This document shows, piece by piece, positions 23,335-53,000 of a stretch of 64,000 nucleotides of DNA. Every line of letters begins with the position of its first letter. The first letter of the stretch is position 1. Under the pieces are notes generated by a model. The model worked only from the letters and a program-made list of their open reading frames with translations. It was not told where the DNA came from and did no database searches. The stretch lies in assembly GCA_950295325.1 (NCBI GenBank), contig OX485809.1:932001-996000 (forward strand), in the 5' to 3' direction. The translations under genes were made by a program, and so were the position numbers. Origin of the DNA: Polytrichum commune (taxonomy: Eukaryota > Streptophyta > Polytrichopsida > Polytrichales > Polytrichaceae).

Positions 23335-23368
<34 letters not shown>

Positions 23369-23920: not shown

Positions 23921-23966
<46 letters not shown>

Positions 23967-24432
23967 TTGATATACTATTGTTGTTGATGTGATCGATTTT
24001 TTCTATGATTCTATAATTTTTGTCTACTAATTCTACAATGAATTCTTAATATTAGGCATTTCAATATTATAAACCACCTACCAATAATGTATAATGCTCA
24101 AATATTATTAGCCAATAGATGCCTTTTGCTTTTGTCATTATGTGGACTCATGGTCTATGGATGTTGTCCGCCATGAATACACGTTCCATTATAAGGATGG
24201 CACATGGAATGGAGAAATCTTAGGGTTTTATTTTTAGGACATAGTTGGTGATAGTATCCTATGTCGAAAAACGGATCCAAGGGAAAACGATCACTACTTA
24301 AGGGGACATCCCCTCACTAAGGGACTCTTTTTGCATCTCAGATGTGGGTTGCGCTCTCTAAACCCTTGTAGTGTGCTGGGTTTTTATTTTGCGGAGGTAT
24401 AGATCCTATTATGCCGCCGCAAATAACGGAAG

Positions 24433-26976: not shown

Positions 26977-28575
26977 TAACACTATATTCGTTAAATTGAG
27001 ACTTTCTCTAGTCTCAAATTAATATATGGATCAAACAACATTCCGTGTTCCGAAACTATATTGCGAACAATCTCAAATATATTATATGTTCTAATATCCC
27101 AAATCTATTATGTGTGGACATAAGCACATATGGTAGAGCACTCAACACCAACTTCATCAACAAAAACACTTTGGGTAGAGCACTCCAAACTAGTTTCATC
27201 CAATAAACATATAAAATGGTTTATATTATTAGCATGGTCAATAAAATATAGACATTGCAACATACAAAGTGCATGCAATAAATGCATTTTTCTTCAATGG
27301 ACAATTTAGTCCCAAACTTAATAAAAAAATGAACTTCACATTTGTATTGAAATATAGTAAATGAATATTCATCCAACCCCAAACAATATAGCATTCGCAA
27401 GTTCTACCCAAACTTTGCCCCAAGTTTGAGGAGCACACATATGAGTAATATATATTCGTCGAATTACATATTACACTATAATCATGCTAACACAATCCTA
27501 CCAACTTCTCATTTAACGTGGGTTGCTTCTTCTGCGATCCGAGCAAGGTTGTCTTTTGCAAAAGTTATGTACTTTTGAGGGATGGACACCGATCCACTAT
27601 GATTTTTCCGTGGTTTCCATGCTATGAATATGGAATCTGTATCTATCCAAGATGGACCATGCTCAGAATCCACCTTCCACCGAAAGTTAGGGTTTGTATC
27701 CCAGCCTGTATAATGCCGAACAACATCTTCATTCCGTGATGTCGGTCGGTAGTACTCTACTTGTATTTGTCGAAAATGAGGGCTGGAAGTTACAAAATTT
27801 GGTTTGGACAAAGCTCTTGCCACCCACACTGGCTTTGCATATGTCTCATCTCCAGGATGCAAAATGAGCATATAACCTTCATGACAATCCACTGCAATGC
27901 GGAAAGATGGTGGCGGACGACTACTAGCAGGCCCCACGTAATGGTCGTCCACATCAAACTCCTCTCGAACCTCTCCATTTCCCAAAAGACTAGCCTCCGA
28001 AGCTTGTACATTGACACGTGTTTGTGGCCAAAACCCATGCCTTAAAGTAAGGGGTGTATCTTCATGAAGGTTTGCCAAAGCGCCACGAACACGTGTCCAA
28101 TATTGTATCCAACTTCCGTAACGAAGCCAACACGATCCACCAACATCCGCTACCCTCAAACTCTCCCAATATTGTATGAAGCCTGATATGCCTTTACAAA
28201 TGTCCTCCAAATTCTTCATGGGTATTGGTTTGCAAGGCTTAGGCTCTCCGTCAGGCAACATCGTCCTTCCTTCCCCATCAACACGCCATACAAGGAGACC
28301 CTCCGGCGGGCTCCAGTCTTGTGATGTGCACAACAACTTGTATTGCATGGCGGGGACACCATCGTCACGCACGTAGAACCGAAATTGTTGTGCCTTCGTA
28401 TGCCCGATCAATCGGTGAGCTCCGCTTCGAATATACGGTTCTATAAATGCCTTGAAGTCTGGAACCTCCTCTATCATATGTGGGATGACGGGAATGTTCT
28501 CCAAATCCATGTACGACTTCATCAACAATGGGATTGTTGGAAAATCCTCCTCGCGCAACTTCATGCTCCACCGCC
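26977..28575 (-). repeat. left arm of a 1,599-bp inverted duplication
   Basis: It matches the reverse complement of 44620-46218 over the same length. I noticed one coding difference (His/Arg; CA against CG at about 27857). The outer end is CACTATATTCG (from 26980). The arm covers the last third of the transposase gene plus about 530 bp of 3' flank. The two arms are 16 kb apart and face each other. Confidence 0.95.
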
Positions 28576-31500
28576 CAAAGGACGCATCAATATCATCGTG
28601 CGTGTGGCCTACCAATAGAAAGGACACAAAAACCTCCTTGAAAATGCCTTTCGCAACCAACAACGACCAATATGCAAAAACATATCTACTTTTATTGTCC
28701 TTCGCACAATTGTCCAATTGGACACGCAGAGTTGGGGGCAAATTCTTGGCAATCACATCTTCACTTGGTGGCTCCGGCAATGAGTGCACGCATACATCTC
28801 TTCCATCCAAGACCGCTTCATATAGAGGTGTTGATCCCGAGTTTTCAAATAGCAATCTTGATGAATAGGACGGCGGTTTCTCCAAATCACGTAAAAGCTT
28901 TGCAAATGACCCTATCGTGTGGTTTGAATCCCCCGGATACAAATCAAGAGCATAATGAGCATACTTGACATCTCCATGCCCATGTGCAATCATTCCTGCA
29001 AAGGCAACCCAATGGTTTAATATTCAACTATAACACCAAAAAATTCACATGGTGTACATGTATGGCCCCAAGTACAAACCTAAACGCACAAATTTGTGTT
29101 TAGGTAATGCAATGCAATTGTTATCAAAATCACCTGTAACCGAAACAGGAAGCTTAAAAATGCCGTCCGTGGCTTTTATTCGATTTGCAAAACATGGTGA
29201 GGCTGTTTTGGCATGGTCCATTTTGTCATGGATGATTGTAAGGACTTCCAAAGGCCTGGAGATGGACAAAGCTCTATTTGTGTAGTAATCATTACGGTGT
29301 GCCTCTTGCATGTTCACATGCTTGAAATAGTTCATTTGATGTGCGGCATAGGACTCTGTCCCCATCGTGTGTGCATCTCGAAGGCGTTTCAACTTCTCGC
29401 ATTTGGAACAACGGGCAAATTTGTCGCCTCGTCTTTTTGTGATGTATTCGCTAAAGTGAGATTTTTTGATAGCACTCAGTTTCGACAACGAAATAGGGTC
29501 CAACCCGGCCTTCTCGCCAACTGCGTTTACGTCCAACAATATGTCTTTCCATTTCGTGCCTGTAGGAAGAACCTTCTCCACAACCTTTTCACCGGTTGCG
29601 AGTGTCCGTGTTTTGTGCGGCATTGCATCGGCAAGGGGGACAATGATGGTTGCCAGAGTAGCTGTTGCTTGTCTCGTTGCTTCTCTTGGTTTCTTTAAGC
29701 CCGTGTTCCCATGGTGACGGGCACGGCGGCCTTCATTGGCATACGCGGCTTGTCTATAAAATTCCGCTTTCGACACACCGTGAATGGTGTACCATGCCGT
29801 ACAACACACGTCTATGCTCTCAAGGGTGATGACCTTGCGACCCGCTCCGTTCACATGTATCGCCCTATGGACATCAAGTTTTTTGGTGGATCTTAGACGG
29901 AAATCTCCAAGCCACATTTCTTCACGGATGGCCTTCAATTTATCTCTTGGGAACAATTGGCAACAACGATGTACACAACAATCCTTCGTAGCAACTTCTC
30001 TAATAGACTCCTCACAGAGCAACCTTTGACGTTTACACTTATTTGCAGACGGAGTAGGACGTGTCAATGTTTCGTACTTCCGAAGGCCTTTGCGTGGCCG
30101 AATGTTTGCTTGGAGCTTGTGATATCATTTTTTGGATAGGATAGGTGATTTTTGACTTTGAAGGGAGGTGAGTGACAAATTATACTCAAGACTCACAGAA
30201 CAGTGATAAACTAGGTGATTAGTCACTCAGGAATGGAAACAGGCAGGTATGGTAGAATATTACTTAGCTGCCCGTAGTATAGAAGATATCAGGAGTCATG
30301 AAATTCACATGTGACAATTAAAAGAAGCCCCTGATATCTTAGCTAAAGTCAGTCACCACCTTTCGGGACAGGAAGATAAGAAGGAGGAGGAAGAGGAGAG
30401 AAGAGAGAGAGATTTTTTTTGTGTTAGACCTTCCTCTCGAGAAGAGAGTGATTTTGTAGTCTCTCCCAATCACTGGGTGTGAAACCCTTAAGCTCCATTG
30501 TAAATCATACTCTTTGAATATATCAGATTGTAAATTCAGCGATATATATATTTTGTACACGTTGTTTGTGCAAGTGGAAATTGATTACCTTGTTGCTCAT
30601 GTAGAATTCGATTCAGGAGTGTGAAACTCTTGAATGGGAGAAGTGTGAATTTCATGTATGTGTTGAAGTCAGACTCGTACAGAAATTTCTTGGACAATAT
30701 CTTAAGGTTTCAACTACAGAGGAGTAATTCCTCGGTGATTATAAGTGCCCGGGTGTGAAGCCCGAGGATTTTATCAGGATACCCATCTGATTAAAATTCA
30801 GATACTTTTATTCTCCACACACTTCAACTCCCATGTCTGAGAATATTGTAGACTTGAAATTTGAGCAGTGCATTACCTTATGGGTGAGAAAGAGTAATAT
30901 GGTTTCTCATTAATCCTCTTCCCTGAGTGTGATACTCTTGTGCAAGAGAAGTGTGTGGTAACTACAATTGTTTTGTGAACCATACTTGGACACATAGCAA
31001 GCTGATTTCACAATTCCTAACTCTTGTTATGTGTGGTAATGAATGCGGGAAGGGAGAAATCTGTCGGGAGAAGAATTTGATAGGGGATGTGTTACTCCTA
31101 TCTAAACAATTAAAGAACTCATTCTTGTTGTGAAGACAGAATAGAATCAAAATATCTTTGATAGTGTTTTAAGGTGGCAACTCTCGAAAGAAGTCACCTA
31201 GAGACTAAGTGAGCCTGGTGTGAAGCCGAGAGACTCATTGTGCATCTATTCCTGATAAATGACATACTACAATGCAGTAAACTGTCACATTCCCGCTTGA
31301 GTTGGGATTTCTGGAAGTGAATATCCGGAGAAAGAAGGAATATGAGGATGAGTATGATGTGGATAAGGGTGTAACAATGTAACCGAGCACCTGAGATGGG
31401 GATTATAATTTAGTTCGAAGCAAGTCATCAGGCTCGAACGTTTCCCGAAATACTCTTTATCAGAATCACTCAGCAGTTATCCCCTCCGCTTGAGGGATTA

Positions 31501-33182
31501 ATAATTAACATACCCTGGTCTGGTAGCGCTTAAAGATGTGAATTCTTTATTGTGTTCCAGATGAATTAACTCTGAAGTCAAATAATCTTCGGAGTAGAAT
31601 TAAAGTGAAGATTTGAATGATAGGAGGAGTACGACCTCAGTATCTTATTCCTTAGAACTGGAAGAATGAAGCTCTCATGCCTCAAGAAGCCCAGAACAAT
31701 AATTTTGGGGTTGATCGTATAAATTGCGAACAACAACTCGTTTCCCCATCATGGTGTTAAAGTGGCTTATTTGGTGAAATTAGATTGAAGTCTAACAACA
31801 AGAGGAAAGTGAAAATAGTCTGTGACAGTAAGTGAAAGTGGAATTCAAACATCGATATTCCTTCATAGGTTCTGCTCACACTGACAGGAAGCCTTTTGAC
31901 TTGATACACCATTCTTCGAGCAAAGGAATTGGTGAAGCCTTCGATTCACATTCGAGGGGCATTTCAGTCAGTACGTAAACATTCGAGGGGTTCCTGTTGA
32001 ATTGGTGAATCTTGTGCATTGAGATACAGGAGCGGAATCTGTTGAGGAGATCTCTTTGCGGTCGACGGAGAGGTAGCAGTTGCGCAATGAAGGCGAAGCT
32101 GTGGAGTTAGGAGGAGCGTCGTGCCATTTAACCCATATCGATTGGGGTAGCCAGGAAAGGTAAGTATAAAGCCCATCCCTTCTCTTACGCTAACGTGACT
32201 AGACGATTCTCTATGACACTAAGACTGTTACTCGCTACTGGTTACTAGTTACTGGGCACTGTTACTAGACGTTTCTCTCTGGGTTACTAAACGTTTCTCT
32301 GGATACTTGTGACCAGACGCTTATTTGGAACTGGATACTAGACGTTTACTTGTGACTTGACACTAGACTGTTACTGTTCTGGCCCGGTCCGCTTCAGACG
32401 TTTCTCTCTTCGTTCCCGGTTCGTGGTTTCTGTCACTTGTAACTAGACTTTTATCAAAATTCCCTAAGTCCTAATTTTTACAAGTATAGAAATGTGTCAT
32501 TGTTTGAGTAATGAATAAATTTATTTATGATAAGTGTGTGACAAGTCAAGTCACATGAGAATGGATTAATTGTGATAATTAAGTGTCAAACTCATTCCCT
32601 CACCCTTTTGATCTATCGATCGACCTTATCGTGACAAACTAAAGATACATCTGACACTCATTTAGTCTTCCCTGGGTGTTTTTTGAGCTGGAACCCTGGA
32701 TGAAAAAACTAACTACAGAGCTCCTGTTGGATTTGGACGTGTCGTCGCTCATGGTCGCGCAAACTAACCCCCTCAATTGTCACATTCCTCAACGGCCACC
32801 TTCGCAACGAGAACCTATGAGTTGGATTGACTTCCGAATGTACAAGTGATTCTAATATAACAACTCCAACGTCCTCGGTGCCAAGGGAGTGTTCATCAAT
32901 GCAATCTTGTGGATGTGTGTTACGACAAATACCCTCCGCCACAGCAACTCCACTGTCATTAACAAGTACCACATCCAAATTCACCCATGAAGCTCGTGAA
33001 AGCCCCGCACATTCCACAATGGGGCAAAAAGGGTCAGATGGCGAAGGACTCCCCAAATGACCTTCATCTGCACTGTCATCAAAACTATCCTCCCCGACAA
33101 TGTCTAGCTCATCCCCAGACAGAGATTGGGTGCTGCCCATGTCTTCAGAGAAGGAATCCCCTCTTCCACCAACTCCCTCCAT
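27509..33182 (-). CDS. DUF7869-type transposase, split by an LTR-like insertion
   Basis: Minus-strand gene. The ATG at 33182 follows a TTTGTGTAG acceptor. The reading frame runs to 32718, is broken by a 2.6-kb insertion (30118-32717, TSD GAGCT), and resumes in frame at 30112. Exon 1 then ends at 29134 (ACAG|GTGATT). A 138-bp phase-1 intron (29133-28996, TTTGCAG) precedes the last exon, 28995-27509. Without the insertion the product is about 976 residues. Visible parts: an acidic Ser-rich N-terminus; a VNLDVVLV segment; a Cys-rich CCVHRCCQLF region; CSKC; a HDKMDHAKTASPCF segment; then the core LRVQLDNCAKDN and VGHTHDDIDASFGRW, which resemble the RNase-H-like core of DUF7869 proteins common in transposon-derived genes of mosses and ferns. 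The family call is from memory. It probably catalyses transposition. A 1.2-kb palindrome array lies directly upstream. Confidence 0.75.
30118..32717. mobile_element. 2.6-kb LTR-like insertion in the transposase gene
   Basis: Begins TGTGATATCA and ends AACTAACTACA, with 5-bp direct repeats GAGCT at 30113-30117 and 32718-32722. It has no coding capacity. Repeated GTGTGAA(A/G)C(T/C)C and AGAGAAGTGTG motifs occur in the middle, and ACTAGAC(T/G)(G/T)TT motifs at 32200-32460. The end resembles that of the 5593-7508 insertion. Removing it plus one GAGCT joins ...QIQQEL to QANIRP... in one uninterrupted frame. Best explained as a large solo LTR. TATA-like and polyadenylation-like AT runs are present but not assignable. 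Confidence 0.9.
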
Positions 33183-33385
33183 TGCGCCTACACAAATGCA
33201 CATGAAACCTCAACAAACATGGACACAACGTAAGGGTCCAAAAAAATCAAATATTGGAAAATGCAAAACATCACGATAAATGGGGACACTGAGGATCAAG
33301 ACATTTGCAACACAAATGCAATGTGAGCTCCCAATACTATGCGCCAGTCCACAAAATGTTCCACAAAATATTTTGGGTGGGAGTT
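33183..33385 (-). promoter_or_regulatory. short leader/acceptor region upstream of the transposase ATG
   Basis: GCATTTGTGTAG|GCGCA lies immediately 5' of the ATG at 33182 and looks like a splice acceptor, which would place the palindrome array in a 5'-leader intron. The fold-back family gene and the ParB-like gene have the same arrangement (an acceptor at or within about ten bases of the ATG). Confidence 0.5.
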
Positions 33386-34585
33386 TGGGTCGGCCGACCT
33401 AAACCCTGTGGCACCAGGGATTGAGGGCCATCCACACCTTGCCCGTGGGATAGGGTCGGGTTCCGGTCGACCGACTCAAACCTTGTACAATGATGGGTTG
33501 AGGGCCATTTAGAATTCCATCACGCTGTGGGGAAAATTTTGGGTCGACCGACCCAATCCTTGTCATGGTCAACTACAACCTCCGAAACTGGGGAAGGGGT
33601 TGGGTCGACCGACCCAATCTTTGACGGGGTTAATCCACCCACACTGGATAGGGGTTTGGGTCGGTCGACCCAAACTTTCACAGGCTAAATCCATCCACAC
33701 TGGGAAGGGGTTTGGGTCGACCGACCCAAACTTTCACAGGGTAAACCCACCACACTCGGAAGGGGTTTGGGTCGGTCGACCCAAACTTTCACAGGGTAAG
33801 TCCACCCACACTGGGAAAGGGTTTGGGTCGGTCGACCCAAACTTTCACAGTGTAAATCCACCCACACTGGGAAAGGGTTTGGGTCGGTCGACCCAAACTT
33901 TCACAGTGTAAATCCACCCACACTGGGATGAGGTTTGGGTCGCTCGACCCAAACATTACATATGATGGGATAAGGTTCCTACTCTGTCCGTCCAAACCTT
34001 CTGAGTACCTTGGGTAAGGGCCATTAACAATTCGTTCACGATGTGCGAAAAAGTTTGGGTCGACCGACCCAAACCTTTTGAAAGGTTTTACGATAAACGC
34101 CCATAGTGGGGTAGGGGTTTGGGTCGACCGACCCAAATCTCAGAAGGGTCAGACTAGACCCCCCCCCCCAACACTAGTGAGGGGGTTTGGGTCGACCGAC
34201 CCAAACCTCACAAGGGTCAGACTAGACCCCCCTCCCAAACACTAGTGAAGGGGTTTGGGTCGACCGACCCAAACCTCACAAGGGTCAGACTAGACCCCCC
34301 CCCAACACTAGTGAAGGGGTTTGGGTCGATCGACCCAAACCTCACAAGGGTCAGGCTAGACCCCCCCCCCCAACACTAGTGAAGGGGTTTGGGTCGACCG
34401 ACCCAAACCTCACAAGGGTGAGACTAGAACCCGCCCACACTAGTGGAGGGGTTTGGGTCGATCGACCCAAACCTCAGAATGGTCAGACTAGAACCCGCCC
34501 ACACTAGTGGAGGGGTTTGGGTCGACCGACCCAAACCTCACAAGGGTCAAACTGAAACCCGCCAACACTAGTGTCGACCGACGTA
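33386..34585. repeat. family-2 palindrome array (about 19 units)
   Basis: Repeated core TTTGGGTCG-NN-CGACCCAAA. The central pair is AC, GT, AT, CT or GC, so units with AC or GT have an orientation. There are about 19 units near 33387, 33450, 33541, 33600, 33656, 33712, 33768, 33825, 33879, 33935, 34056, 34119, 34188, 34256, 34322, 34391, 34454, 34519 and a partial one at 34571. Spacing is about 56 bp in the gene-proximal half, with a shared CTTTCACAG linker. It is about 65-68 bp in the distal half, where the linker includes CACTAGTG and AGGGTCAGACTAGA. The first units are degenerate. The same core occurs in all three introns of the ParB-like gene. Confidence 0.95.
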
Positions 34586-38317: not shown

Positions 38318-38950
38318 GTATTTTCTTTTATTATATGCAATAAGTGTTTGTCAATTGAAGGTATTGTAGCATACACAACGCATAAGCATTGTATATGCTA
38401 CGTGCCAACTTTTAAAAATTACATTAAAATAGGAAAGTTTGGGGAGACGACCCAAACACGGCCACAGGTTTGGGTCGGTCGACCCAAACACAGCCTCTTG
38501 TTTGGGTCGACCGACCCAAACACAGTCTCTTGTTTGGGTCGACCGACCCAAACACAAAACAAAGCATCATGTTTGGGCCGAACGACCCAAACACAGCCTC
38601 TTGTTTGGGTCGACCGACCCAAACACAAAACAAAGCATCATGTTTGGGCCGAACGACCCAAACAACGTCTTCTAATTATAAACTCATAAAGAAATCCATG
38701 ATTTTTGCATCAATATAAAATTCACATCCACTAAAAAATAATAATCAAGGAATGTATCAAGGAAAAGTATCAAGTAATCCTGCATGTCACAAACAATATA
38801 AAATGCAAATCCACCCAATAATCAAAACATTCTTATTATCAATACAAATGATGCTGAAATATATAAATATACAATCCACCTAAACCTATTCATGTCGTAG
38901 ATGTTTGGGTCGAACGACCGAAACTAACATTGCACATTATTTTCTTACAG
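38318..38950 (+). repeat. leader intron of the ParB-like gene with six palindromes
   Basis: GT...AG interval (GTATTT...TTACAG). Six family-2 palindromes lie at 38469, 38501, 38533, 38572, 38604 and 38643; two of them have GGGCCGAACGACCC cores. Degenerate copies lie at about 38438 and 38902. Units alternate in a 71-bp higher-order repeat that includes CACAAAACAAAGCATCATG. Confidence 0.85.
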
Positions 38951-41900
38951 ATGGCTCCAAAGAAAAGACCCGGCGAAAGGTGGTTCATGCCTGCGCCGGA
39001 CATGTTGCGGTAGGAGCACGAAACCCCGCAGGATGACTCCTATTCCCCTAAGGACGGGCTTGTCCTCGCGTGGTCTATACAAGTGGTTAAGGGTTCGCAA
39101 TACAAAATGATTTTTGTTGTGAAGGTTGGGACCGTGGAAAAGCACACATGGGCTACTCTTACGGGGTGGGAGGTGGCATCGGTTCAGTCTCTTGGAGACT
39201 ACGTGGATGTCATCCTCGAGAACAACGCTGTCCAGAACGCGCATATGTTTATGCACCAGTTCTCCGAACCCTTTGACGCTATCTATGCAAAAGAAACATG
39301 TGTAGAACCAGACGTCATCAAACCGGAGTCCATATTCATCGATAACAGTACATCGAACACAAAGGTGTCGAGCAGATTCACGAAACTAAAGCATGCAATC
39401 AGCGTGCTCAACAAAGCCCTGCAGAGCAAAACCAAGTCTCAGCAACCCGTGAGGCGGAAAGCAACCACAGAGGAAGGAGCAGGGTCGTCAAGACCTCAAT
39501 CGGTGAGGAAGCCGCGACCAGTACCGGCTGACTCGCGGAGGACCACTCCCTCCCAAACACCTGCGGATAGCGAGACGCCTACACCTTCTGGGAGCCGTCA
39601 AACAACTCCATCCAAGAGGGGGAGAGAGTCATCTGTGATGACTGACGAGCCAGTCTCACCGGAGTTGCGCATGCCGAAGCCCGGCGAAGAGGTGGATGCA
39701 GGGGAGCTGCAGAAAATCGTGAACAATTTCACGACGAAATGCTCCCACTGTTTTTTCATGGGCAGGGATTTTAAGTTCGACGTGAACATCAGCCAGTGCC
39801 ATCTAGCGCCACCGGAGAAGTGTGTCCGGGCAAAGGAGGACGCCTACGTTGACTGGATAATCGCGCAGATCGTTTGCGAGCAGTTTAAAGACGACAGGCA
39901 AACGATAGTAGTGATGCCACAGGGTCTCAAGAAAATGCCTACACCTGAAATGTGGCCCACAATTCAGAAGGGCGATTTTTGGCTCATAGACGGCCAGCAC
40001 AGCGTGGAGGCATCCAAGAAAATCCAACTCATGAATGAGTGGGATGATCCGAACAATCAGAAGGAAAAGCTGAAGGTTTGGAAGGCACTAGTGGTGTGGT
40101 CTGACGACGAGACCAAGCTCAGCGACATCTCCCGGTACTTCAATATGGGAAATAAGAAGAGGGCCTACCAAGCTTCCTGGATAAAGAATATCATGGCCTC
40201 GCGGGAGGTGTGGGAGTTCTATGGTAGGCCTCCCAAGGAGAGGGAGAATGCGAAGGACAAGAATCCCAAATGGGAGGTGAGTATTGTTTAGGTCGACCGA
40301 CCCAAACTCCTGATGCAGCCTTGTTTATTTAGTTTGGGTCGACCGACCCAAACTCCTGATGCAGCTAGTTTATTTAGTTTGGGTCGACCGACCCAAACTC
40401 CTGATGCAGCTAGTTTATTTAGTTTGGGTCGATCGACCCAAACTGTTGTTGCAGATGTTGGTCATGATATGGGTTGGAAATCACATGTACATATCTAACA
40501 CGCATTCAAATGTTCTGTTTTGTGGACGTGCAGGATTTCAAATACCAAATGATCAACAAATTCTCCTCCATTGATAATTCGAGCCACAAGCAGAAGAAAT
40601 ACAGCGACCTCAAGGGGGAGATTTACTTGATTACAGCATCTGACTCAGTTTGGAAGAAGTGGAAAACCGTGTTTGAAAAGCACGAGACGGGGGATTTGAT
40701 CGACCCCGACACTGGCATTTTCTTCAGCCAAACCTCGCGCTTCAAGCAGATGAAGCCTCTCGTGAGAGAGTTCTTTAGAACTCTTCAAGGGCTGTCAGAG
40801 ACGGAGGTGGAGAAGGCGGCATCTCACATCCTGCACGTGGCAGCCACGGCAAAGAGGTGTTGGGTGCACCCGAAGATTGTCTTCCAAAAGCCCAAATCCT
40901 TCGTTCCTTCATGCTACACCATGAAGGAATGGACGGATAACAGGAAAAAGAAGACGACTATCGTGCAGGAGCTGCATAAACTAGTGCCAGAGAGGAATAT
41001 TGTCGTGGACGGCGAGGTCCATGAGGCTAACTGGAGAGCATTCAAAGCTGAATATAAGTTCACCAGTGCCTCCATGGCGGCTCTAATAAGGGAAGCGGGG
41101 GACGACTTCTTGCGGGCCAAGATGGTGAAGGGTGGGAAGAACCGGGCGCTTCCGGATCACACAGCGCGTGCGTTCTCGAACTTCATCAAGGAGAAGAAGA
41201 TTGTCCAGTTTGAAGGGGAAGCGTACTTCAACCTTGTCACCACCGACCCGTTGAAAATTCAGGGTTGGCCAGGTCAAGACGCCAGAATGGCGATAAGGAC
41301 GAAAGCAAGGGACCGCTTTCCTTTTGGGATGATTGATTTCAGGAATATTCCTGGAAGCTCATTTGAGGGCACGATGAGCACCCTCTTCTATGACCCCTTC
41401 CTATCTAAGTTCGTCGATTATGCAAGCCCTAAGTTCAGGGAGGTAGATATCTGGCTTTGGATAGTCGAGGATAGGAGGGCGGAGCAGGTGTACGAGCTTG
41501 TCCGGAAACTGCAGCCGGAGTATGCAGTCTCCAAGTCTCACTACATCGCCGCACCGGCGGAGGGAGCTTACACGACGTTGAGGGACAAGAAGACCAAGTT
41601 CGTCAACGTCTTGTGTTTGTACTTCGTGTACAAAGCGGAGTTGCTGAAGGTGCCGAACCACCCTATATCCCGGATGGACAAACTCTTCCAAGTTCCAGAA
41701 GGGTTGGGTGTCAACAAGTGCCTCTACGACGAGGCTAAATACGCGAACTATCCTTTAGATGAGCTGCGGATGGAATTTTACGTGAGAATGATGAGGACGC
41801 TGACGAGGAGAGGGGATTGCATCTTCAACGTCTTCGGAGGCTCTAAACCTATCTATGCTGCCATGGTAAGCGACTTTCTATAACTCGTGCGCAGTTTGGG

Positions 41901-42612
41901 TCGATCGACCCAAACTAGGCTCTGTGTTGGTTTGGGTCGATCGACCCAAACTAGGCTCTTTGTTGGTTTGGGTCGATCGACCCAAACTAGTCTCTTTGTT
42001 GGTTTGGGTCGATCGACCCAAACTAGGCTCTTTGTTGGTTTGGGTCGATCGACCCAAACTACACATTGTACTTGGTCTTGTTTATGTCCCTCGCCTAATT
42101 CTAATGTCTATATAACTTGGATTGTGTAGATGTCGGGGTTGAGTATATACTCCTACATAGAGGATGGCGATCTGCCATTTTACAGGACGCAGAGATCGTT
42201 GGCGAAGAAGATGGACATCCTCGATTGGATCCCGGGTAGCTACGTCGACGAGGTTGTTCAGGGGGGCGAAAACCCTCTTGATAGGCTGAGGCGGATCAAC
42301 CCGGAAGAAATGGCCATGAGGGCCACAACCCAAGAACCCGAACCTCTTGTCGGGTTGCATCCGGGCAATCCGTCCCGCACAGAAGGTGGCGATGTCGAGG
42401 AGGAGGAGGAAGAAGAGGAGCACGAGGAGGCGGAGAAGGAAGGCGACGTGGAGGAAGGGGCAACGGGCTTCACGCAAGAATCCGAAGCCCCTCAACGGAA
42501 GAAGGCGATGCGGGCGGCAACCCCGCAGAGTAAGCTCGTGCCCGTCCTGACGGTGGACGATTGTGAGCCCAAAAGGGTGCCCACATTTAGTCTTAGACCC
42601 TTGAAACGTTAG
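38951..42612 (+). CDS. ParB-like / DNA-methyltransferase-like protein, element-encoded, with in-frame TAG
   Basis: Three coding exons, 38951-40276, 40534-41865 and 42130-42612, are joined by phase-0 GT-AG introns (GAG|GTGAGT, GTGCAG|GAT, ATG|GTAAGC, GTGTAG|ATG). The total is 1,046 codons before the stop. The ATG sits directly after a TTACAG acceptor. Codon 21 is TAG (39011-39013), but the frame continues open on both sides, so this copy is probably mutated (CAG to TAG is the simplest change). Residues about 158-235 are a Ser/Thr/Pro/Arg-rich linker. About 265-435 resembles a ParB/sulfiredoxin-like domain, with GDFWLIDGQHSVEA (IDGQH at 346-350). About 700-886 resembles a beta-class N6/N4 methylase with YDPF (728-731) in place of DPPF/Y and GDCIFNVFGGSK (FGGS at 876-879) in place of FxGSG, so catalysis is doubtful. 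The last exon is acidic (eight consecutive Glu). ParB-plus-methylase fusions are known from phages and plasmids; a role here in site binding or anti-silencing is inference. Confidence 0.65.
40277..40533 (+). repeat. intron 2 of the ParB-like gene with four palindromes
   Basis: GTGAGT...GTGCAG. Units lie at about 40288, 40333, 40378 and 40423 in a 45-bp tandem repeat (linker CTCCTGATGCAGCTAGTTTA-like). Three have the AC centre and the last has AT. The first unit begins 10 bp inside the donor. Confidence 0.95.
41866..42129 (+). repeat. intron 3 of the ParB-like gene with five palindromes
   Basis: GTAAGC...TTGTGTAG. Five perfect TTTGGGTCGATCGACCCAAA units at 41894, 41931, 41967, 42003 and 42039 form a 36-37 bp tandem repeat with linker CTAGGCTCTTTGTTGG. 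Confidence 0.95.
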
Positions 42613-44203
42613 TTGATGCACTTTGAAGTAGCATGTTACTTCACAAAAATATAAAAAGAGTGAAATGTTAGTCTTAGAAGTACCATGTTGTAAGAGGCTA
42701 GGATGTGAGTTGTTATTGTGTTTTTACCTTCGGAAGGATTTGAGTGAATGAGGATAAGTAAGGAGAACTTGGATTGAGTAGTTAGTGAGTAGGCTAGTAC
42801 AAATGGATGGAGACAACCAAAGTGACTCAAGAGGCAAGTGCATTCGAATTGGGATGAATGGAGGATCACATGGAGCGCACAAGTGGACCACCTCATCATG
42901 GCCACTTAATGGGGAAGGCCCAAGGAAGAATGCAAGGTGGAGGATAAGCAAATTCTCAAAACACCAATTAAATCACGAGTTAAGCATCGTGGTTTGAATT
43001 AAGTGGTGAGCGACGATTTGGGAAAGTAAGGGGAGAAAGTTATGGCGGCGGAAAGCGAAGGAGGCTAAGTTTGGGTTGAAGCATCCCAAGTTTGGTAAAG
43101 TGTGGTAGGTAGAAAGCCAAGGCTAGTTAAATGTTCGAATTAGGATCCTTGTTGATCATTTGAGGGAGGAAGGCTTAGAAGATAGGATTGGCGCCTACTA
43201 AGTAGGAGGAAATCTCAAGGGCTTATCGTGAGCCTTGAGGGTGCTCACCCCCTCAAGCTTACTATATAATCCCTCATTCTTCCCTCACTCATCCTCTCTT
43301 TCCTTTGTGCTCCAAGGCACCCCACGAGTTATAAGTGTGGGTGTGGGAAGCCATATTGGAGCACATGTGTGTGCTTAGTTTTTAGTTTGAGAGCCAAGGC
43401 TTGTTAGCCTTGAAGAGGGCTTGACCTCTTGGTAGAATTAGTGTTGACGTGAAGGATTTTAAAGTTAATTCATGATTCCAATTTGTGGTACTTAAAGTTC
43501 ATGTTTTGAATACACGTGGTTGCAAGTTCCATGTTTAAGAGTTGAGCACTTGATGTTGTGATGAGTGCAAAAATATACTTGTGTGGATTAGTTAGTCTTA
43601 GTGAAGTTAGGAAATTCTCTCTCCCCCTCTCCTCTCTAGGATTTTAGGATTTTAGGATTAGAGAAGAATTGTGTGATTAGAAAGGGGTTGTTAGTAGAAT
43701 TAGGGAAATTAGGTAGGAAGATTAGTTAAGGGCTTGAATAATTAGTGAGGTAGTTGGGGATTACAACTACAAAGTTGTGGGTTCATGAAGGAGCTGGGTT
43801 TATGAAGGAGCTGGGTTTGTTTAGTTAGAAGCTAAGGAGCTGGGTTCATGAAGGAGCTGGGTTTATGAAGGAGCTAGGTTTATGTAATTAGAAAGTAAAG
43901 AGATGGGTTCATAAAGGAGCTTAGTAGATAGCCTACCTAATTAGCTCATAGACAAGTAGTTAGTTACATTATGTTAGTTAGTGTTATGTGTGGCTTTCAC
44001 AAGTAAATGTATTTGAGATTGACTATAGAGAATAGTGTTTTTTTTTTAACACTTGCATCCTCTCTTTAAAAATAAACCACGTGCACAACTTAAGGGAGAA
44101 TGTGGAGCACTCTCGCGATGGCAAGACAAAGGAAGCAAAGACCAAAGGTGCGAGGGAGAGATTGACATAAGTCACATAAGTATTTCTTAATACTTAAAGG
44201 CTT
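42613..44203. other. 3' flank of the ParB-like gene, no gene seen
   Basis: Purine-rich plus strand. A short degenerate tandem repeat of GAAGGAGCTGGGTTTATG-type units lies at 43785-43880. No coding frame supported. Confidence 0.4.
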
Positions 44204-44416
44204 ATGTACGGTATGGAGACACCAAGTGAGACCTCTTATAGTAGCGATACGGAATACACAAGTGATAGTTCAAGTGGTAGTATAGAGTCAACGGCACGGA
44301 CTCCATTTAGGAGAGGGATATCCTTAAGGGCTTGTGTAGCTAAAGCAGCCGGATGGACGTTAGAAGCAAACAAAGACAAAATAGCACCCGAGCATAAGGA
44401 GGTTAAAATAACATAG
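44204..44416 (+). CDS. small Ser-rich hypothetical protein
   Basis: ATG at 44204, 70 codons, stop TAG. The N-terminal half is Ser/Thr/acidic (SETSYSSDTEYTSDSSSGS) and is followed by a basic hinge and an Ala-rich segment. Protein-like composition but no known family. It may be a separate small gene of the large element or the first exon of something truncated by the inverted arm at 44620. Confidence 0.3.
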   Translation: MYGMETPSETSYSSDTEYTSDSSSGSIESTARTPFRRGISLRACVAKAAGWTLEANKDKIAPEHKEVKIT

Positions 44417-44619
44417 TTAACTTGTGCATTCTCCACATACGTATTGAAATCGTACATTGAGTTGTTAAAAGTGAAATTCCAGTTAAATCCAAGACCACTT
44501 GAAGGGTGAACCTTGCACTATGGACTCATCCAAGTCCAAATCCAATACCGCGGAGGAATGTGAGCCCAAACCCACTACTCGGACTACGGACGCTTAAGGG
44601 TGGGGGGTTTGGCCTCACA
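44417..44619. other. junction segment before the right arm
   Basis: Ends in GGCCTCACAG, an acceptor-like sequence immediately before the first duplicated base at 44620. No gene of its own. Confidence 0.4.
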
Positions 44620-46218
44620 GGCGGTGGAGCATGAAGTTGCGCGAGGAGGATTTTCCAACAATCCCATTGTTGATGAAGTCGTACATGGATTTGGAGAACA
44701 TTCCCGTCATCCCACATATGATAGAGGAGGTTCCAGACTTCAAGGCATTTATAGAACCGTATATTCGAAGCGGAGCTCACCGATTGATCGGGCATACGAA
44801 GGCACAACAATTTCGGTTCTACGTGCGTGACGATGGTGTCCCCGCCATGCAATACAAGTTGTTGTGCACATCACAAGACTGGAGCCCGCCGGAGGGTCTC
44901 CTTGTATGGCGTGTTGATGGGGAAGGAAGGACGATGTTGCCTGACGGAGAGCCTAAGCCTTGCAAACCAATACCCATGAAGAATTTGGAGGACATTTGTA
45001 AAGGCATATCAGGCTTCATACAATATTGGGAGAGTTTGAGGGTAGCGGATGTTGGTGGATCGTGTTGGCTTCGTTACGGAAGTTGGATACAATATTGGAC
45101 ACGTGTTCGTGGCGCTTTGGCAAACCTTCATGAAGATACACCCCTTACTTTAAGGCATGGGTTTTGGCCACAAACACGTGTCAATGTACAAGCTTCGGAG
45201 GCTAGTCTTTTGGGAAATGGAGAGGTTCGAGAGGAGTTTGATGTGGACGACCATTACGTGGGGCCTGCTAGTAGTCGTCCGCCACCATCTTTCCGCATTG
45301 CAGTGGATTGTCATGAAGGTTATATGCTCATTTTGCGTCCTGGAGATGAGACATATGCAAAGCCAGTGTGGGTGGCAAGAGCTTTGTCCAAACCAAATTT
45401 TGTAACTTCCAGCCCTCATTTTCGACAAATACAAGTAGAGTACTACCGACCGACATCACGGAATGAAGATGTTGTTCGGCATTATACAGGCTGGGATACA
45501 AACCCTAACTTTCGGTGGAAGGTGGATTCTGAGCATGGTCCATCTTGGATAGATACAGATTCCATATTCATAGCATGGAAACCACGGAAAAATCATAGTG
45601 GATCGGTGTCCATCCCTCAAAAGTACATAACTTTTGCAAAAGACAACCTTGCTCGGATCGCAGAAGAAGCAACCCACGTTAAATGAGAAGTTGGTAGGAT
45701 TGTGTTAGCATGATTATAGTGTAATATGTAATTCGACGAATATATATTACTCATATGTGTGCTCCTCAAACTTGGGGCAAAGTTTGGGTAGAACTTGCGA
45801 ATGCTATATTGTTTGGGGTTGGATGAATATTCATTTACTATATTTCAATACAAATGTGAAGTTCATTTTTTTATTAAGTTTGGGACTAAATTGTCCATTG
45901 AAGAAAAATGCATTTATTGCATGCACTTTGTATGTTGCAATGTCTATATTTTATTGACCATGCTAATAATATAAACCATTTTATATGTTTATTGGATGAA
46001 ACTAGTTTGGAGTGCTCTACCCAAAGTGTTTTTGTTGATGAAGTTGGTGTTGAGTGCTCTACCATATGTGCTTATGTCCACACATAATAGATTTGGGATA
46101 TTAGAACATATAATATATTTGAGATTGTTCGCAATATAGTTTCGGAACACGGAATGTTGTTTGATCCATATATTAATTTGAGACTAGAGAAAGTCTCAAT
46201 TTAACGAATATAGTGTTA
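44620..46218 (+). repeat. right arm of the 1,599-bp inverted duplication
   Basis: Inverted copy of 26977-28575, ending ...CGAATATAGTG (46205-46215) plus TTA. It abuts the CACTA subterminal repeat with a short shared TTAAC. Identity to the left arm is nearly complete, so the duplication is recent or maintained by gene conversion. Confidence 0.95.
44631..45686 (+). pseudogene. 3' part of the DUF7869-type transposase (inverted copy)
   Basis: Encodes the C-terminal 351 residues, from MKLREEDFPTIP to the stop. I noticed one residue different from the minus-strand gene (Arg for His in LILRPGD). It lacks the LDNCAKDN and VGHTHDDID core motifs. The copy begins within Gly-Arg|Trp-Ser right after a CACAG acceptor-like site, so it could still be spliced to an upstream exon, but no upstream exon of this gene is present. 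Confidence 0.8.
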
Positions 46219-47088: not shown

Positions 47089-50000
47089 TTAGGGTGCATT
47101 CCTCCTACGCAACCTTCTTTGATTGTTTCCCCGTTCCACCCCCCTGGGTGCTTGTGGTCTTCCGCGTTGGTGTTCCTGGTGTCTCTCCCCCCTCACTAGT
47201 GCATTTAACCGTGCAATCTCTGCAGCTGGAACTGCCTCCCCAGCATGTCTCACAAGTGGGCGGAATTGTGCAGCATTCATGTCTCGCGGCAATTGCAAGC
47301 CAATTAATTCGCCAGATATCCCCAGTATCTGTTCGTCATCGTTATCTACTACTCTCCTTGACCGCGGCTCTTTCTGCATCACCACGCTCCACCCACGGTG
47401 CAGCCAGTCCGGAATGAAGAACACCTATTCATTGTTTCCAGAGCGTCAAGAAATTATTGTCTTGCATGTGAATTTCAGCCACACAACCATCTTTGTAAGG
47501 TGCACATCAAAACAATTGTAGCAACATTATCAAGCTCCAAGATGAATCCACATGTTTAGAGAGACAAAATTACTTGTCTGACTGTGGCTGGCAATACATA
47601 TGGTTCCGTGTTTCTTGGAATTCGATCATTGAAGCGTACCACCGTGAAGCCAAATTGGTCTACCTTTGTTGATGACCGTGGCCCAGGATCATTGCGGATC
47701 CAGGATCCTCGAAATACAACTCTCCTTTGGGCTGAGTACCGCACCACGATAATCTCTTTCAAGACCCCAACCATGCTCACCCCCGCACTTCGTCCTTCCT
47801 CCGCACCAAAAATATTGGCGATGCCATAATCCTGCGTCACAAACCCAGGATTGTCCCCCTCGTTTGCCACTCTGTAATGATTGCCATAGGCCCACATCTG
47901 TTGGTAAGTCTCAGCATCCCTTGAGGGTAGAGCTGATAGCCGGAGTAGTTCAATGTCGACATTGTTTGAACCATGGGCATTTACCAACATTGTTGTGTAC
48001 TGGGGCAGCCACTCCACAAAGTCAGGGAGGCCATGCATAAGTGCATCTGGATACCTGTGTTGCTCTCTTCGTGAAAGCCCCCGTGCTGTAGCGTCCCTCC
48101 TAAACCGCTCCCTTTCCGACTCCAGCTGCTCTGTAAGGGCATGGTACTCTCTAAAGGCACACAAACTGAAAGTAATTATAATGTTGATTGGAACATTCAC
48201 AGTGAATGGGTTGTTTTACATGGTTTGCCCTATGACAATTCAGCACGGGGGGACAAAAAACTTACCTCCAAGGCTCGCTGGTCGCATCAGAGTTCCTAAT
48301 AATCCACGAATGGATTCCCCGTCGTTCCTCACTGCTAAGTTCTCGGTAAATTGCTTTTCCTTCCAACAATTCTCCGCAATCTCCCAACTCCTCCTCGTCG
48401 TCCCAAATCCGACGACGGGTGTGAGGATACAATTTCAAGTATTCGGTGCAAAACCCCAAGGCTTCGTCAAATACATAAGCGTTCGCAATGGCACCTTCAG
48501 GATGTGCCCTGCTCCTAATATATTTTTTCAAAACATTCAAGTGCCTCTCCACCGGGTAGCACCAAACATTAGCAATTGGACCACACAACTTGACTTGCCT
48601 AACTAGGTGAATTGGCAAATGGACCATAATGTCAAAAAACGAAGGAGGAAACCATATCTCCATTAAGCACATGGTTTCCGCTGCGAAATGTTGCAGACGC
48701 TCTAATTCTGCTACATTTATGACTTTCTTACATATCATGGTGAATAACCTCGCCAAACGAATGATAGCTTGGCGAGGGCCCGAGCCCATAAGGTGTCTCA
48801 AACAAACTGGGAGTATAAATTGGAAAAAAATGTGGAAGTCATGTGACTTCATGTTACCGATTCTGTTTTTGATGATGTGCTTCTTCATTGGCCCACAATA
48901 TCCCGTTGGAACTGATATACCGCTCACCTGCTCCATGAATATTCTTTGCTCCTCCTTCGTGAGCACATACGACGCCGGAGGCTTCAAATAATGCCCACCT
49001 GCTACCGGTCCTCGTCAAAGCCACAAATGTTCTCGTATCCGCTCCTCCTCCATGTCTCGCCGCGAAGCTGCAGTGTCTTTTGCACCAAAAATCAGTTTCA
49101 ACAAGCTCTCGCAGATGTTACGCTCAATGTGCATGACGTCCAGAAGATGCCGAATCGGAAGCCTCTGCGGCCAAATCTAGTGACACGTCACATATCCTCC
49201 AACATTGTGCATGGTTTGCAAACTCAGTGTGAGTAATCAACAAACATCACAACATGAAGTTCTGGACATCTACGTTAACAATATGCTCACACCATTACAA
49301 GGATATGAGTTCCATTGTAACAACCAGCATGTTCTTGCAACCATAACAGTGAGGAATGCAACAACACTTGCATGTGACAAATAAAGCATGGGTGATAAGG
49401 TTGGCAGAGTTATCTACACCTGGGGGCCCTTGAGGAGTGTGTGACCCCTCCATATCACTTGTCCGGCAGAATACATTTAGAACTGATCATAACCATGGTT
49501 TAGGGTTACTAACCTCAAAAACCCAAGTTTAAGTTATCCAGTATCTACCCGGGGTGTTAAGTGCCCATTGGTACAGACAAAAATGATTGTTCGGCATTTC
49601 AATTGCCGTTTAAATAACATTTCCAGGCAAACAGTTTAAAACATACTCCAGGAGGTCAGTTTTCCAATTGCGGAGCCAGGCTCCGCAACATAGGCATTAT
49701 AGCAGCACATCCCCACAGTAGACACAGTTCCTTCTTAACCACTGTGGCTGCGAACGCTAAATTCTCCAAGCATGTAGGCTGGATGCATGTATGGACGTGC
49801 ATGATCACAATATACCAGCACCATTTCAATGTAAGTTCAACAAAGTGAATCCACCTGCATATACCTCCAGCCATGGTTGAATCACTGACCTATTAACTTT
49901 GAGTACAACAAAGTAAGTACTTATGATGCCTGGCTGCCTTGATCTATAAGTGTGTTTATGTGGCATGGACGGATTGGCAAAAATGGTACTTATAATGACT

Positions 50001-53000
50001 TTATAATAAAGGTGCCGACTATATATTCAGATTCAACTATGATTTAATTTTGTGCAAGTGTGCCAAGATATGAACATCATGATGCTAGTACCACAGGTTA
50101 TAAAATGAATGATAATCTGAACAAATACATGACGACAGACTAAAGGTCGCTACAACATATGCTATAGTGGTGATTGGAACTTCAAGACCATGCCCAGTGA
50201 TATTTGACCCCGATACACTTTAAAACTGAACCTTCCAATCAACATTCAACCTACAAAGCCCAACCAGAAAGAAATACCTCACTTACATAGATTAGAGATG
50301 TGACAAGAGGAAGGCAATGGACAAAACCTAAAGACACCGTGCATGTCCACTACAATATACACAAATGGGCCTTACTTCAATCACATGAAGACACGTCGAC
50401 TACATGAACCAGCCATATATAAGATATTTGGACATCCTGAACAGCAACTCTGCATCAAGGTGCAACACACAAACATTTCCAGAATCCTCCCAAACACCGA
50501 TATACGCACACAAGCACTCTGAAGCTGAAAGGAGAAACGAGGAATAAGCAGATGAACTCCTTAGTCTGTTGCTATTGAACACCCGTGTAGTTACTGGGAT
50601 ATATTACAGGGCGTCTAACACATAGAGATGTGTTGTGAACAAGGTTAGATTGCTACCATGAGCAATGTACTCCAAACATTCTGATAATTGGTATCCATGA
50701 CATTGACCATGAACACGTCTTCTATCACCCACAACAGATTGAATCCCCCATGCAATATTATCTTGATTGCACATGCACATGACACAGACTCGCATAAACC
50801 AACGATGAGAGTCGGGCACAAGGTCATAATAAAAACAAGCAATCTGCCGCCATTGTGGTTTTGAGCACTAACCCTCCAATACGGTAATTGGTATAATGCG
50901 GATACCCTCTTTACGCCATGCACCTTAGCTGGAAACTCAGCGTCCTTCTCCATGCCGCCACCATCAATGTACGCCTCCGATTCATGTCCACGCCTGATTG
51001 TTTGGTTTCCGGTGAGTGGTTCTTCTGCGATGTCGTGATTGGCTTCACCATCAAATGCTGCGTCCGGTGCTCGAAAGTAGTAGTCTTGTGGAAGATACCG
51101 CCGATGGCAATTGCAATACAAGTTTTTTTGAAGAATTCTTGATCTCCGCGATATTGTATGTGGGCCGCATACAGGGCAGGCTTTGAACCCTTTTGTTGTC
51201 AGTCCAGATATAAGCCCATAAGCCGGAAAATCATGTAATGTCCAAATCAAAACTGCCCTTAGATTGAAGATTGACCTTCCCATGTGAGCTCTGGCGTCCC
51301 GTGTAGGAACCCCTGTCCGACTCCAAAGCTGTTGTAGTTCATCTACCAATGGTTGTATGAAAACATCAATATTGGAACCAGTTAGACTCAACTTCGTTGG
51401 AATCAAAAGACATAACATCACAAAGTATTTTTTTGTTACCATCCATGGAGGTAAATTGTAGTTGAATACAATCACCGGTGTCAAGCTTTGGGTGCTGCGT
51501 TTCTCCGAGTATGGGTTCATGCCATCTAGGGCAAGTCCCAAATGCATATCCCGTGGATCCTTGCCAAACTTGTTGTTGCCAGCTTCAGGCTCCAATTCTG
51601 TGTGCACAAAATTCCACTGTGGAGAATCAGCTGTATGTCTCATCTTACCATCTGCTGACTTGTGGAAATGATGCCATACATTTAACTTGGATAACCTCTT
51701 TGAACTAAACATTCTTTGCAATTGTGGAATCAGAGGGAAATGACGTAATATCAATGTCGGGACCCGAGACCTCCCGCACATTTTATACCTATCATGGTCA
51801 CAAACTGGACATTTTTCTGCATCCTCTAAATCCCCCTTAAACAAACAACAACCCTTAGGACATGCATGTATCATGTTATACGCCAAGCCGAGTCGACGTA
51901 AAATTGTGCTTGCCTCATACTCTGTTTTTGGTAGGCAATTGCCCTGAGGCAAAATGCTCATGCTCAGGAGCATAAGTAGCTCATTCAAGAACGAGTTCGA
52001 CACACCATGTGTCTTGCAACAATTCACTATAAGTAGTGTCGCACACAACATCGACAATGTACTGCCCTCATACAGGGGCAGTGTCGCAACCCTTGCTAGT
52101 CCCCCTTGACCATCTTGCCAATTTTCAATTCTAGCAAAGGTTACGAGTGCCTAACCCTTCGCATACCGCCATGCTAATGGTTAGCTCCTTTAACCCCGGA
52201 CCAATAGTTCATAGGAGGGAACCAACCCTCCTACTTTGCTTTCGGGACTCACCCCTTAATCGGTAACCCATTTCCCCAATGTGGACTTCCATCCATGGAA
52301 GTCCAATCCTATGTTGATCATCGCGTTGCCGGAGCAACACTACAACAACCCGAACCATACTAGGCAACTATGGCCTCACAATGGGCCAATGCCCATGGAG
52401 GCCTTGCCGTTCGGCCTCGGGTGGGTGAGGCCACACCACCTCACCCATATAAGCCTCTAGGACTCTACACGGAGCCCCTACCCCACCGCCAACCAACCTC
52501 TTGTCTCTCTACCAAGAGTTGGGGCCAAGTGGACATTTTCCCTTAGCTGCTGGGCCTAGAACCCCCCCAGCAGCTTCAGACCATCATAACTTCCTTGTAT
52601 GATGTCTGATCATAACAACCAACCACTCCATCCTCATCTACGCTTCACGTAGATGCCGATGGACTCCTCGCTTGCCCCATTCGGGCAAGTCTTGAGGAAG
52701 TTATGCCTGTTTGAACCTTGGCAGTCCCGGGAATCACTCCCAGGCACTGCTGTACCAGGGCGCTGTCCCGGGACAGCGCCCCACTCAAATGGCCATAACT
52801 CCTAGCTCCCACCTCCGCTTGAGGTGATCTTGAGCATTCTAGAATCACCACGCCATGAGCTACGCATAGCTCATGGCCTTACCCTCATGCCTCCTAGTCT
52901 TTGTGGGTGGGGAGGCGTTCCCAACGCCCGGGGCCCTCACCCACACTAGGATCACTTGGGCCCTCTCACCAACGGCGCCACAAGTCCCGGGTGTCACTCC

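Follow-up and report, generated by a model that had tools for sequence, protein, structure and literature searches.

A stretch of 64,000 nucleotides from Polytrichum commune (contig OX485809.1, forward-strand positions 932,001 to 996,000; hereafter the window) contains a DNA transposon in which a ParB-like gene is accompanied by arrays of a long palindrome, GTTTGGGTCGNNCGACCCAAAC. Related genes elsewhere in the genome are accompanied by other palindromes, the palindromic word being common within a gene clade and different between clades. These sequence associations suggest that gene and palindrome form a cognate pair, in which the protein of the element very probably itself recognises the palindrome of that element.

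Palindrome arrays in the window

The palindrome was searched as TTTGGGTCG-NN-CGACCCAAA, the 22 bp given above being the full dyad; we refer to it as the first palindrome, and to the gene and element that carry it in the window as A-type. At up to three mismatches the window contains 34 matches, compared with 0.03 expected from shuffled sequences. At up to four mismatches, 18 units lie in the non-coding DNA upstream of the gene, 7 in intron 1, 4 in intron 2 and 5 in intron 3, and none was found in exons 2 and 3 or in the surviving part of exon 4 of the window copy. Two further four-mismatch matches, at 27170 and 46006, belong to the duplicated left end of the element. The gene and its arrays are arranged as follows.

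33384–34535, plus strand: upstream palindrome array of 18 units, spacings mostly 56 and 64–68, non-coding, between two divergent genes
38318–38950, plus strand: intron 1, in the 5' untranslated region (GT at 38318, AG at 38950), with a six-unit array at 38469–38662 and a lone unit at 38904–38923
38951–40276, plus strand: exon 2 of the ParB-like gene, 442 codons, palindrome-free, with a TAG at codon 21 in the window copy
39683–40276, plus strand: ParB-like domain with the motif FWLIDGQHSVEAS; the similarity is weak
40277–40533, plus strand: intron 2 (GT at 40277, AG at 40533), with a four-unit array at 40287–40442, spacing 45–46
40534–41865, plus strand: exon 3, 444 codons, palindrome-free, with a ratio of nonsynonymous to synonymous divergence (dN/dS) of 0.06 relative to the copy E1 (see below)
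41866–42129, plus strand: intron 3 (GT at 41866, AG at 42129), with a five-unit array at 41895–42058, period 36
42130–42561, plus strand: exon 4, shortened by an insertion at 42562

Introns 2 and 3, which interrupt the coding sequence, both fall between codons, and the splice sites are consistent with the gene model; the window has no Rfam match at gathering scores. Three full-length A-type copies, E1, E2 and E3, were assembled for comparison. Most dyads extend by one base on each side, with G preceding 67 and C following 69 of the 71 units in nine arrays, and both flanking bases are present in 102 of 107 exact units of the window and E1–E3.

The preliminary description of the window had placed arrays of six, four and five units in the three introns, and these counts and the intron coordinates are correct, intron 1 having one further unit at 38904. 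The array periods differ between introns, as it had stated: the 71 bp that it gave for intron 1 is the sum of alternating spacings of 32 and 39, followed by 45–46 in intron 2 and 36 in intron 3. Its statement that the exons contain no palindromes holds for the window and fails for E1–E3, in which two units lie inside the open frame of exon 4. The 18-unit upstream array, the TAG at codon 21 and the insertion that cuts exon 4 had been overlooked.

Occurrence of the first palindrome in the genome

In the 408-Mb assembly the first palindrome has 9731 exact sites, compared with 0 for the reversed control. Of the first 100 listed sites, three A-type elements account for 81 and two loci of a second gene lineage (B-type; loci L006 and L007) for 14; the other 5 belong to two loci in which tblastn detected no such gene. 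A distribution unrelated to the element, which would have spoken against the preliminary description, is thus not what we find, nor is the palindrome absent from the introns of other copies. Ten further A-type copies (L044–L053) were picked across the identity range of 95 listed matches (1235 first-look candidates), and all ten carry 3–6 units in intron 2 (36 in total) and 1–5 in intron 3 (26 in total); no unit was found in exon 3 of these ten copies. Together with E1–E3, introns 2 and 3 carry the palindrome in 13 of 13 other copies.

Selection on the palindrome core

The fixed core of the palindrome is under selection while the linkers change, and the encoded protein is under purifying selection. 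Within arrays, 4 of 666 core positions deviate from the array consensus compared with 110 of 1653 linker positions (p = 3e-12 by Fisher's test), a contrast that is somewhat biased by the location of units through their core at up to four mismatches. The comparison covers seven of nine arrays, the other two having too few units at one spacing. When the consensus units of the nine arrays of the window and E1 are compared with each other, all nine agree at every one of the 18 positions of the core and at the G and C that flank it, and positions farther out agree in three to five of the nine.

The same pattern is seen between copies. E1, the most diverged of the 13 copies, and the window are 85–87% identical in protein sequence in exons 2 and 3, with nonsynonymous divergence (dN) of 0.085, a proportion of synonymous differences (pS) of 0.74, synonymous divergence (dS) of 3.7 and dN/dS of 0.02 in exon 2, and dN of 0.086, pS of 0.64, dS of 1.4 and dN/dS of 0.06 in exon 3. 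Synonymous sites are therefore near saturation, and the cores are still 98.6% identical in intron 2 and 87.1% in intron 3, compared with 59% and 54% for the non-core positions. In the closer copies E2 and E3 the dN/dS of exon 2 relative to the window is 0.16 and 0.11, respectively, and the contrast between core and non-core positions is smaller. Selection on the core had been proposed in the preliminary description, and both the deviations within arrays and the 87–99% identity of the cores to those of E1 bear this out.

Tandem arrays readily expand and contract and perfect dyads can form stems, and one could therefore regard the arrays as a neutral satellite-like expansion or as sequences kept as RNA or DNA hairpins. 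A spacer of 3–4 bp occurs at 0 exact sites in the genome versus 9731 sites with 2 bp (spacers of 0–1 bp lay outside the search). Joint changes of both arms occur at 11 sites for position C8 (22-mer pattern) and at 0 sites for G5; at six of the 11 the two changes are complementary. The near absence of double-arm changes at these two pairs indicates that the sequence itself is kept and not pairing alone, which rules out a hairpin function; the absence of 3–4 bp spacers and the conservation of the core, both relative to the linkers and near synonymous saturation, rule out neutral repeat expansion. We give practically no credence to either explanation.

The A-type element

The ParB-like gene belongs to a DNA transposon of 17–18.6 kb with 4-bp target duplications. 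The full elements measure 18,084 bp (E1), 18,616 bp (E2) and 16,952 bp (E3); all three start with AACACTATATTCGTTAAATTGAGACTTT and finish with its inverse, or a variant thereof in E2, and are flanked by the duplications AAGT (E1), CCTT (E2) and TTAT (E3), read by eye. They share a layout of minus-strand DUF7869 frames and the ParB-like gene, divergent from each other with a palindrome array in between, and a downstream frame, VLDLNGVLVQCVHCPR; the Pfam match to DUF7869 is that of the window copy. We take the downstream frame to resemble a phosphatase of the NIF/FCP1 type. E2 and E3 have one stop each in exon 2, whereas exon 3 is free of stops in most of the listed A-type and L054-clade matches (for L054 see below). 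The remaining parts of the window copy are the following.

26977–28575, no strand: left end of the element, starting with AACACTATATTCGTTAAATTGAGACTTT; an inverted copy lies at 44620–46218
27509–33203, minus strand: divergent DUF7869 gene, in pieces 27509–28993, 29045–30067 and 32709–33203
44620–46218, no strand: inverted left-end copy in place of the true right end, without target duplication

The window copy is rearranged, as indicated by the lack of a target duplication. Its two left-end copies are 99.94% identical over 1599 bp, and the inner edge of the inverted copy coincides with the end of the insertion in exon 4, so that a recent aberrant event is likely. The insertion (42562–44619, 2,058 bp) has the ends TGTGAG/CTCACA, and related stretches are found at L006:447–2725 and L005:1938–3547; the relative in L006 interrupts a palindrome unit, where ACGAC appears to be duplicated. 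Approximately 2.6 kb between the last two DUF7869 pieces of the window are missing from the continuous frame of E3. Outside the element, window positions 50648–52057 and 47559–48987, both on the minus strand, match Transposase_21 (tnp2), DUF4218 and DUF4216, apparently belonging to an ordinary CACTA-type element.

Each of the three full copies contains 33–45 palindrome units. One might suppose that the protein acts as a transposition helper that folds or pairs the element ends at the arrays, as we understand TnpA of En/Spm to do. The 4-bp target duplications show that the elements moved, and there are units near the ends: a few, mostly degenerate, near the right end of E1–E3 and one four-mismatch unit near the left end of E2, E3 and the window copy. 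However, the dense and best-kept arrays are internal, and the left 5.3 kb contain zero units in E1 and one in E2, which makes a role of this kind quite unlikely.

A second palindrome leads to a related gene

The window contains another palindrome array, located outside the element.

21812–25489, no strand: array of a different palindrome, GTTTACGGACGCGCGTCCGTAAAC, 14 units (up to five mismatches) in two inverted groups

No match to A-type, L054 or B-type exons was found at window positions 21812–25489. The inner 22-mer of GTTTACGGACGCGCGTCCGTAAAC has 878 exact sites in the genome, and one locus, L054, was picked by this palindrome alone. The L054 protein shares 32% identity with that of the window over exon 2 and 37% over exon 3. 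The introns of its gene are at the same positions, and the palindrome of this locus lies upstream, in the region of intron 1 and in introns 2 and 3. The first palindrome was not found in L054, even at five mismatches. Exon 2 of this locus (L054:6284–7486) is weakly similar to YEATS near its start (Pfam E-value 0.013, below the cut-off), which is not seen in the window copy.

This blind test from palindrome to gene comprised one locus and was widened by a cluster check on contig C1. The checks for Bm (a B-type palindrome, see below) and for the L054 palindrome covered the first 50 of 502 and the first 50 of 878 listed sites, respectively, all on contig C1. For 7 of the first 8 listed clusters of the L054 palindrome, comprising 49 of 50 sites, exon 3 of an L054-clade gene is no more than 12 kb away, compared with 0.039 expected. 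Among these 8 clusters, none has sites inside exon 3, and none lies within 12 kb of any of the 12 A-type exons listed on C1.

Palindromes follow the clade of the gene

The B-type lineage found at L006 and L007 has a DGNHR domain followed by a methylase-like stretch (L006:4515–7719; L007 with L018). This stretch is weakly similar to N6/N4 DNA methylases (E-value 0.014, below the cut-off), and what we take to be the usual DPPY motif is apparently replaced. The companion gene of L007 had no usable Pfam match. A genome search with the L006 domain yielded a main group (B-main) and a diverged group at 42–50% identity, and the B-type sample consists of 27 loci, 25 of them found by search in addition to L006 and L007.

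A dyad finder detected a palindrome cluster in 20 of the 27 B-type loci, and when the word of the clade is counted at up to four mismatches it is present in 24 of 27. In controls, clusters of at least three occurred in 0 of 54 Markov-resampled sequences and in 2 of 9 real window stretches outside the element, both of which are the L054 palindrome. For L019 and L021, each with two dyads equal in copy number, the dyad was chosen by hand, and four secondary dyads (one each in L007, L019, L021 and L040) were left outside the count table. The B-main word, Bm, is CCCTGTGCGTTAACGCACAGGG and occurs in 6 of 6 B-main loci (once in L006 and three times in L043). The other B-type words, some of them alike, are GGGTGCCGTNAACGRCACCC, GGGTGCCGGCAACGGCACCC, GTGTCTCGGTCCCGAGACAC, GGGTTCGGCGCCGAACCC, GAGGTCACGGATTTCATGACCTC, GGGGTTTCGGTACCGAAACCCC, AATTCTGCACNTGCAGAATT and GGCATCTCGGATCCGAGATGCC.

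The table of 13 palindromes by 31 loci is close to block-diagonal, each word being common within a clade and different between clades. Off the diagonal, the similar words b19 and b38 each match the loci of the other, b35 matches L020 (7) and L025 (3), whose word is alike, and b27 occurs once each in E2 and E3. Plotted on the domain tree, the word labels require 14 changes compared with 19.2 in shuffles, a value as low being reached in 0 of 200, and near-copies contribute to this result. The alignment of B-type domains includes 20 of the 27, six being omitted for internal stops and L007 for an exon spread over two sequence pieces.

Motif definitions derive partly from the tested loci, and the independent tests are therefore the blind case of L054, which is the strongest, and the cluster checks of the L020-clade, L054 and Bm palindromes. 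The L020-clade palindrome has 35 exact sites in the genome, forming 16 clusters, and 13 of these clusters (28 sites) lie 0.28–3.7 kb upstream of exons of the same clade, compared with 0.015 expected. Of 19 L020-clade exons, defined by at least 71% identity to L020, 13 have a site within 10 kb, and the 30 exons of other clades that were examined (of 131 listed) have no cluster at a distance of 15 kb or less. Among the first 10 clusters listed for Bm, which are all on contig C1, 9 are upstream of a B-main exon. Over the three palindromes, 29 of 34 examined clusters are located at genes of the matching clade. The count table and these tests uphold the link between gene and palindrome that the preliminary description had suggested.

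The first palindrome is present in 3 of the 6 B-main loci (L006, L007 and L041) beside their own Bm, a possible capture of the word of another family. That the first palindrome accompanies both A-type genes and some of those in B-main would also fit sites for a host protein that various elements acquired again and again, with the ParB-like gene as a mere passenger. A shared host factor predicts one word, whereas the words differ between clades and are common within them, and we consider this explanation very unlikely.

The encoded protein

The proteins have no trustworthy match in Pfam, NCBIfam or the Protein Data Bank (window exons 2, 3 and part of 4; L054; B-type). The commonest match in PHROG is phrog_1033, a ParB-like partition protein, which is weak in L054 (E-value 0.0098), the window (0.046) and L001 (0.29) and is found weakly in 8 of 20 B-type members (best E-value 0.04); in all five cases with a given span it covers the DGQH/DGNH/EGNH motif. 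The Pfam family DUF1015 also recurs weakly, in 6 of 20 B-type members (best E-value 0.031) and in L054 (0.17). We take DUF1015 to have the ParB/Srx fold. The ParB_N profile PF02195 did not match these proteins in Pfam scans or in the genome search; its four matches in the whole assembly, on contigs C10, C12 and C23, lie at none of these genes and are perhaps bacterial DNA.

Other candidates were rejected. The best A-type hits among solved structures have E-values of 0.88 and 1.2 and are not trusted, a hit of the B-type profile to 50 residues of a ribosomal protein (E-value 0.0069) is taken as chance, and so is the best NCBIfam hit (E-value 0.044). Patterns matched 17 and 1 stretches in viral contigs and 35 in bacterial and archaeal genomes, none of which was confirmed by tblastn.

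The name ParB, under which the preliminary description had introduced the gene, thus rests on weak matches (best E-value 0.0098) and finds no Pfam ParB match to sustain it. The same description had suggested parS-like sites. On such a reading, a ParB-type clamp would load at the palindromes and spread from them for segregation or open chromatin. The weak ParB matches at the DGQH/DGNH motif and the clustering of palindromes beside the gene agree with such loading. On the other side, some of the arginines expected from the CTP motif of bacteria appear to have been substituted in the A-type, partition is not known to be needed by a transposon that resides in a chromosome, and we found no evidence for segregation. 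Loading of this kind appears highly improbable, and the closest functional analogue is VANC of the VANDAL elements.

Proposed function of the protein–palindrome pair

On the reading that we favour, the transposon-encoded protein would recognise GTTTGGGTCGNNCGACCCAAAC as a dimer. The recognised palindromes would be those spread over the non-coding DNA of the element, that is, the divergent promoter region, the introns and the few degenerate units near the ends. Binding at the arrays would mark the element and remove or block silencing, in the form of DNA methylation, of its own family, and we propose that other families would be left alone because they carry other words. By analogy with VANC, anti-silencing is somewhat probable as the main role of the pair.

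A CpG lies within 6 nucleotides of the centre in both arms of 10 of the 13 palindromes and in at least one arm of 11, compared with a background of 12.7% of 6-mers. In other samplings both arms contain a CpG in 9 of 11 palindromes, and in 10 of 16 when three secondary dyads are included; the dyad finder requires G or C in each arm and may favour words that bear CpG. The location of CpG near the centres would suit a protein that reads the methylation state, which we regard as a hint. A more elaborate scheme would combine a ParB-type clamp and parS-like palindromes into addressable anti-silencing: every family would have a palindrome of its own, the clamp would load at the arrays and spread along the element so that it stays unmethylated, CpG half-sites would sense methylation, one lineage would be fused to a methyltransferase-like stretch, and some elements would borrow the palindrome of another family for its protein. 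We think this combination unlikely.

The main rival, which is compatible with anti-silencing, is autoregulation: the protein would bind the palindromes in the divergent promoter region and the introns and set its own transcription and that of DUF7869, with no effect on silencing. The largest array is indeed located between the two divergent genes, the introns of the gene itself are loaded with units, and palindromic operators read by dimers are ordinary. Still, 33–45 units per element over introns, exon 4 and ends are far more than an operator needs, and we consider autoregulation without anti-silencing rather unlikely.

Several observations weigh against the cognate pair itself. Gene and palindrome travel in one element, so that an association between them is expected from linkage alone, and many element copies are recent and not independent. 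Only part of the units are exact, 18 of 33 in E2 and 25 of 40 in E3, and in intron 3 of E2 the core shows no excess of conservation over the other positions (0.809 versus 0.818). The exon-4 open frame of E1–E3 (498 aa in E2) holds two units in each copy (E1:19668 and 19737; E2:19120 and 19189; E3:19383 and 19452), which translate as FGSxDPN. At 2 of 7 sampled first-palindrome loci (L004 and L005, with their neighbours) tblastn found no ParB-like gene. Among the 27 B-type loci the dyad finder detected no cluster in L022, L028, L031, L033, L037, L039 and L043, and L022, L037 and L039 have none of the tabled palindromes. Six of the 19 L020-clade exons lack an exact site within 10 kb, and for 3 of the 16 L020-word clusters there is no exon of the same clade. 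The two words in 3 of 6 B-main loci are not predicted by one protein, one word. With regard to the protein, the A-type and B-type domains align over 17 columns, which is not significant, and a single-sequence AlphaFold2 model of the ParB-like domain has a mean predicted local distance difference test (pLDDT) score of 34.8.

Significance and comparison with known systems

To our knowledge, sequence-specific self-recognition by transposons is known mainly from VANC and partly from TnpA. The phenomenon as such is therefore not new, and what appears to be new is this protein lineage with its palindromic words; no description of the system was found in the searched literature, which comprised titles and the openings of abstracts outside subscription journals. 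The present system appears to be a separate instance in which the protein is unrelated and the words are long palindromes; it involves two gene lineages and about a dozen palindromes in one genome. The clades would provide a natural series of protein–site pairs from which to learn how a protein of this type comes to read a different word; should anti-silencing prove correct, they would also form a set of addressable demethylating proteins. The presence of the first palindrome in part of B-main raises the question whether elements take over the words of each other.

The target duplications of Mutator-like elements (MULEs) are 9–11 bp long. VANDAL is borne on a MULE and the A-type is not: its target duplications are 4 bp and its companion gene is DUF7869. 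The VANC domains DUF1985 and DUF287 were not found in Pfam scans of window exons 2, 3 and part of 4 and of L054 exons 2 and 3. The likeness is therefore one in working and not in membership, and consists of a transposon-encoded protein, family-specific motif arrays in non-coding DNA and turnover around the motif. VANC21 of Arabidopsis has arrays of its motif in the introns and in the intergenic and terminal non-coding DNA of its own family; other motifs are found in related families, and the arrays expand and contract (PMC5735166). VANC binds a 9-bp motif and demethylates the DNA of its own family (PMC5735166, PMC10398659), whereas the palindromes described here are 18–24 bp long. Binding and loss of methylation have been shown for VANC and are proposed for the system described here.

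In the En/Spm element of maize, the sites of TnpA are short and subterminal, in contrast to the A-type, where units near the ends are few and mostly degenerate and the dense arrays are internal. The two are alike in that the protein is encoded by the transposon, and TnpA is linked to demethylation of its own element (PMC10398659). Bacterial ParB/parS, as we understand that system, resembles the present one in the weak sequence matches and in palindromes clustered near the gene. It differs in that here there is no Pfam ParB match, the carrier is a eukaryotic transposon, the sites number dozens and include introns, and there are many clade-specific palindromes. In fungi, several lineages of DNA transposons carry TET/JBP dioxygenases and likewise have a gene of an anti-silencing type; in the passage on the shared gene region, no palindrome is described at its ends (PMC12730594). 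The fungal gene encodes an enzyme, whereas we propose a protein that reads a motif.

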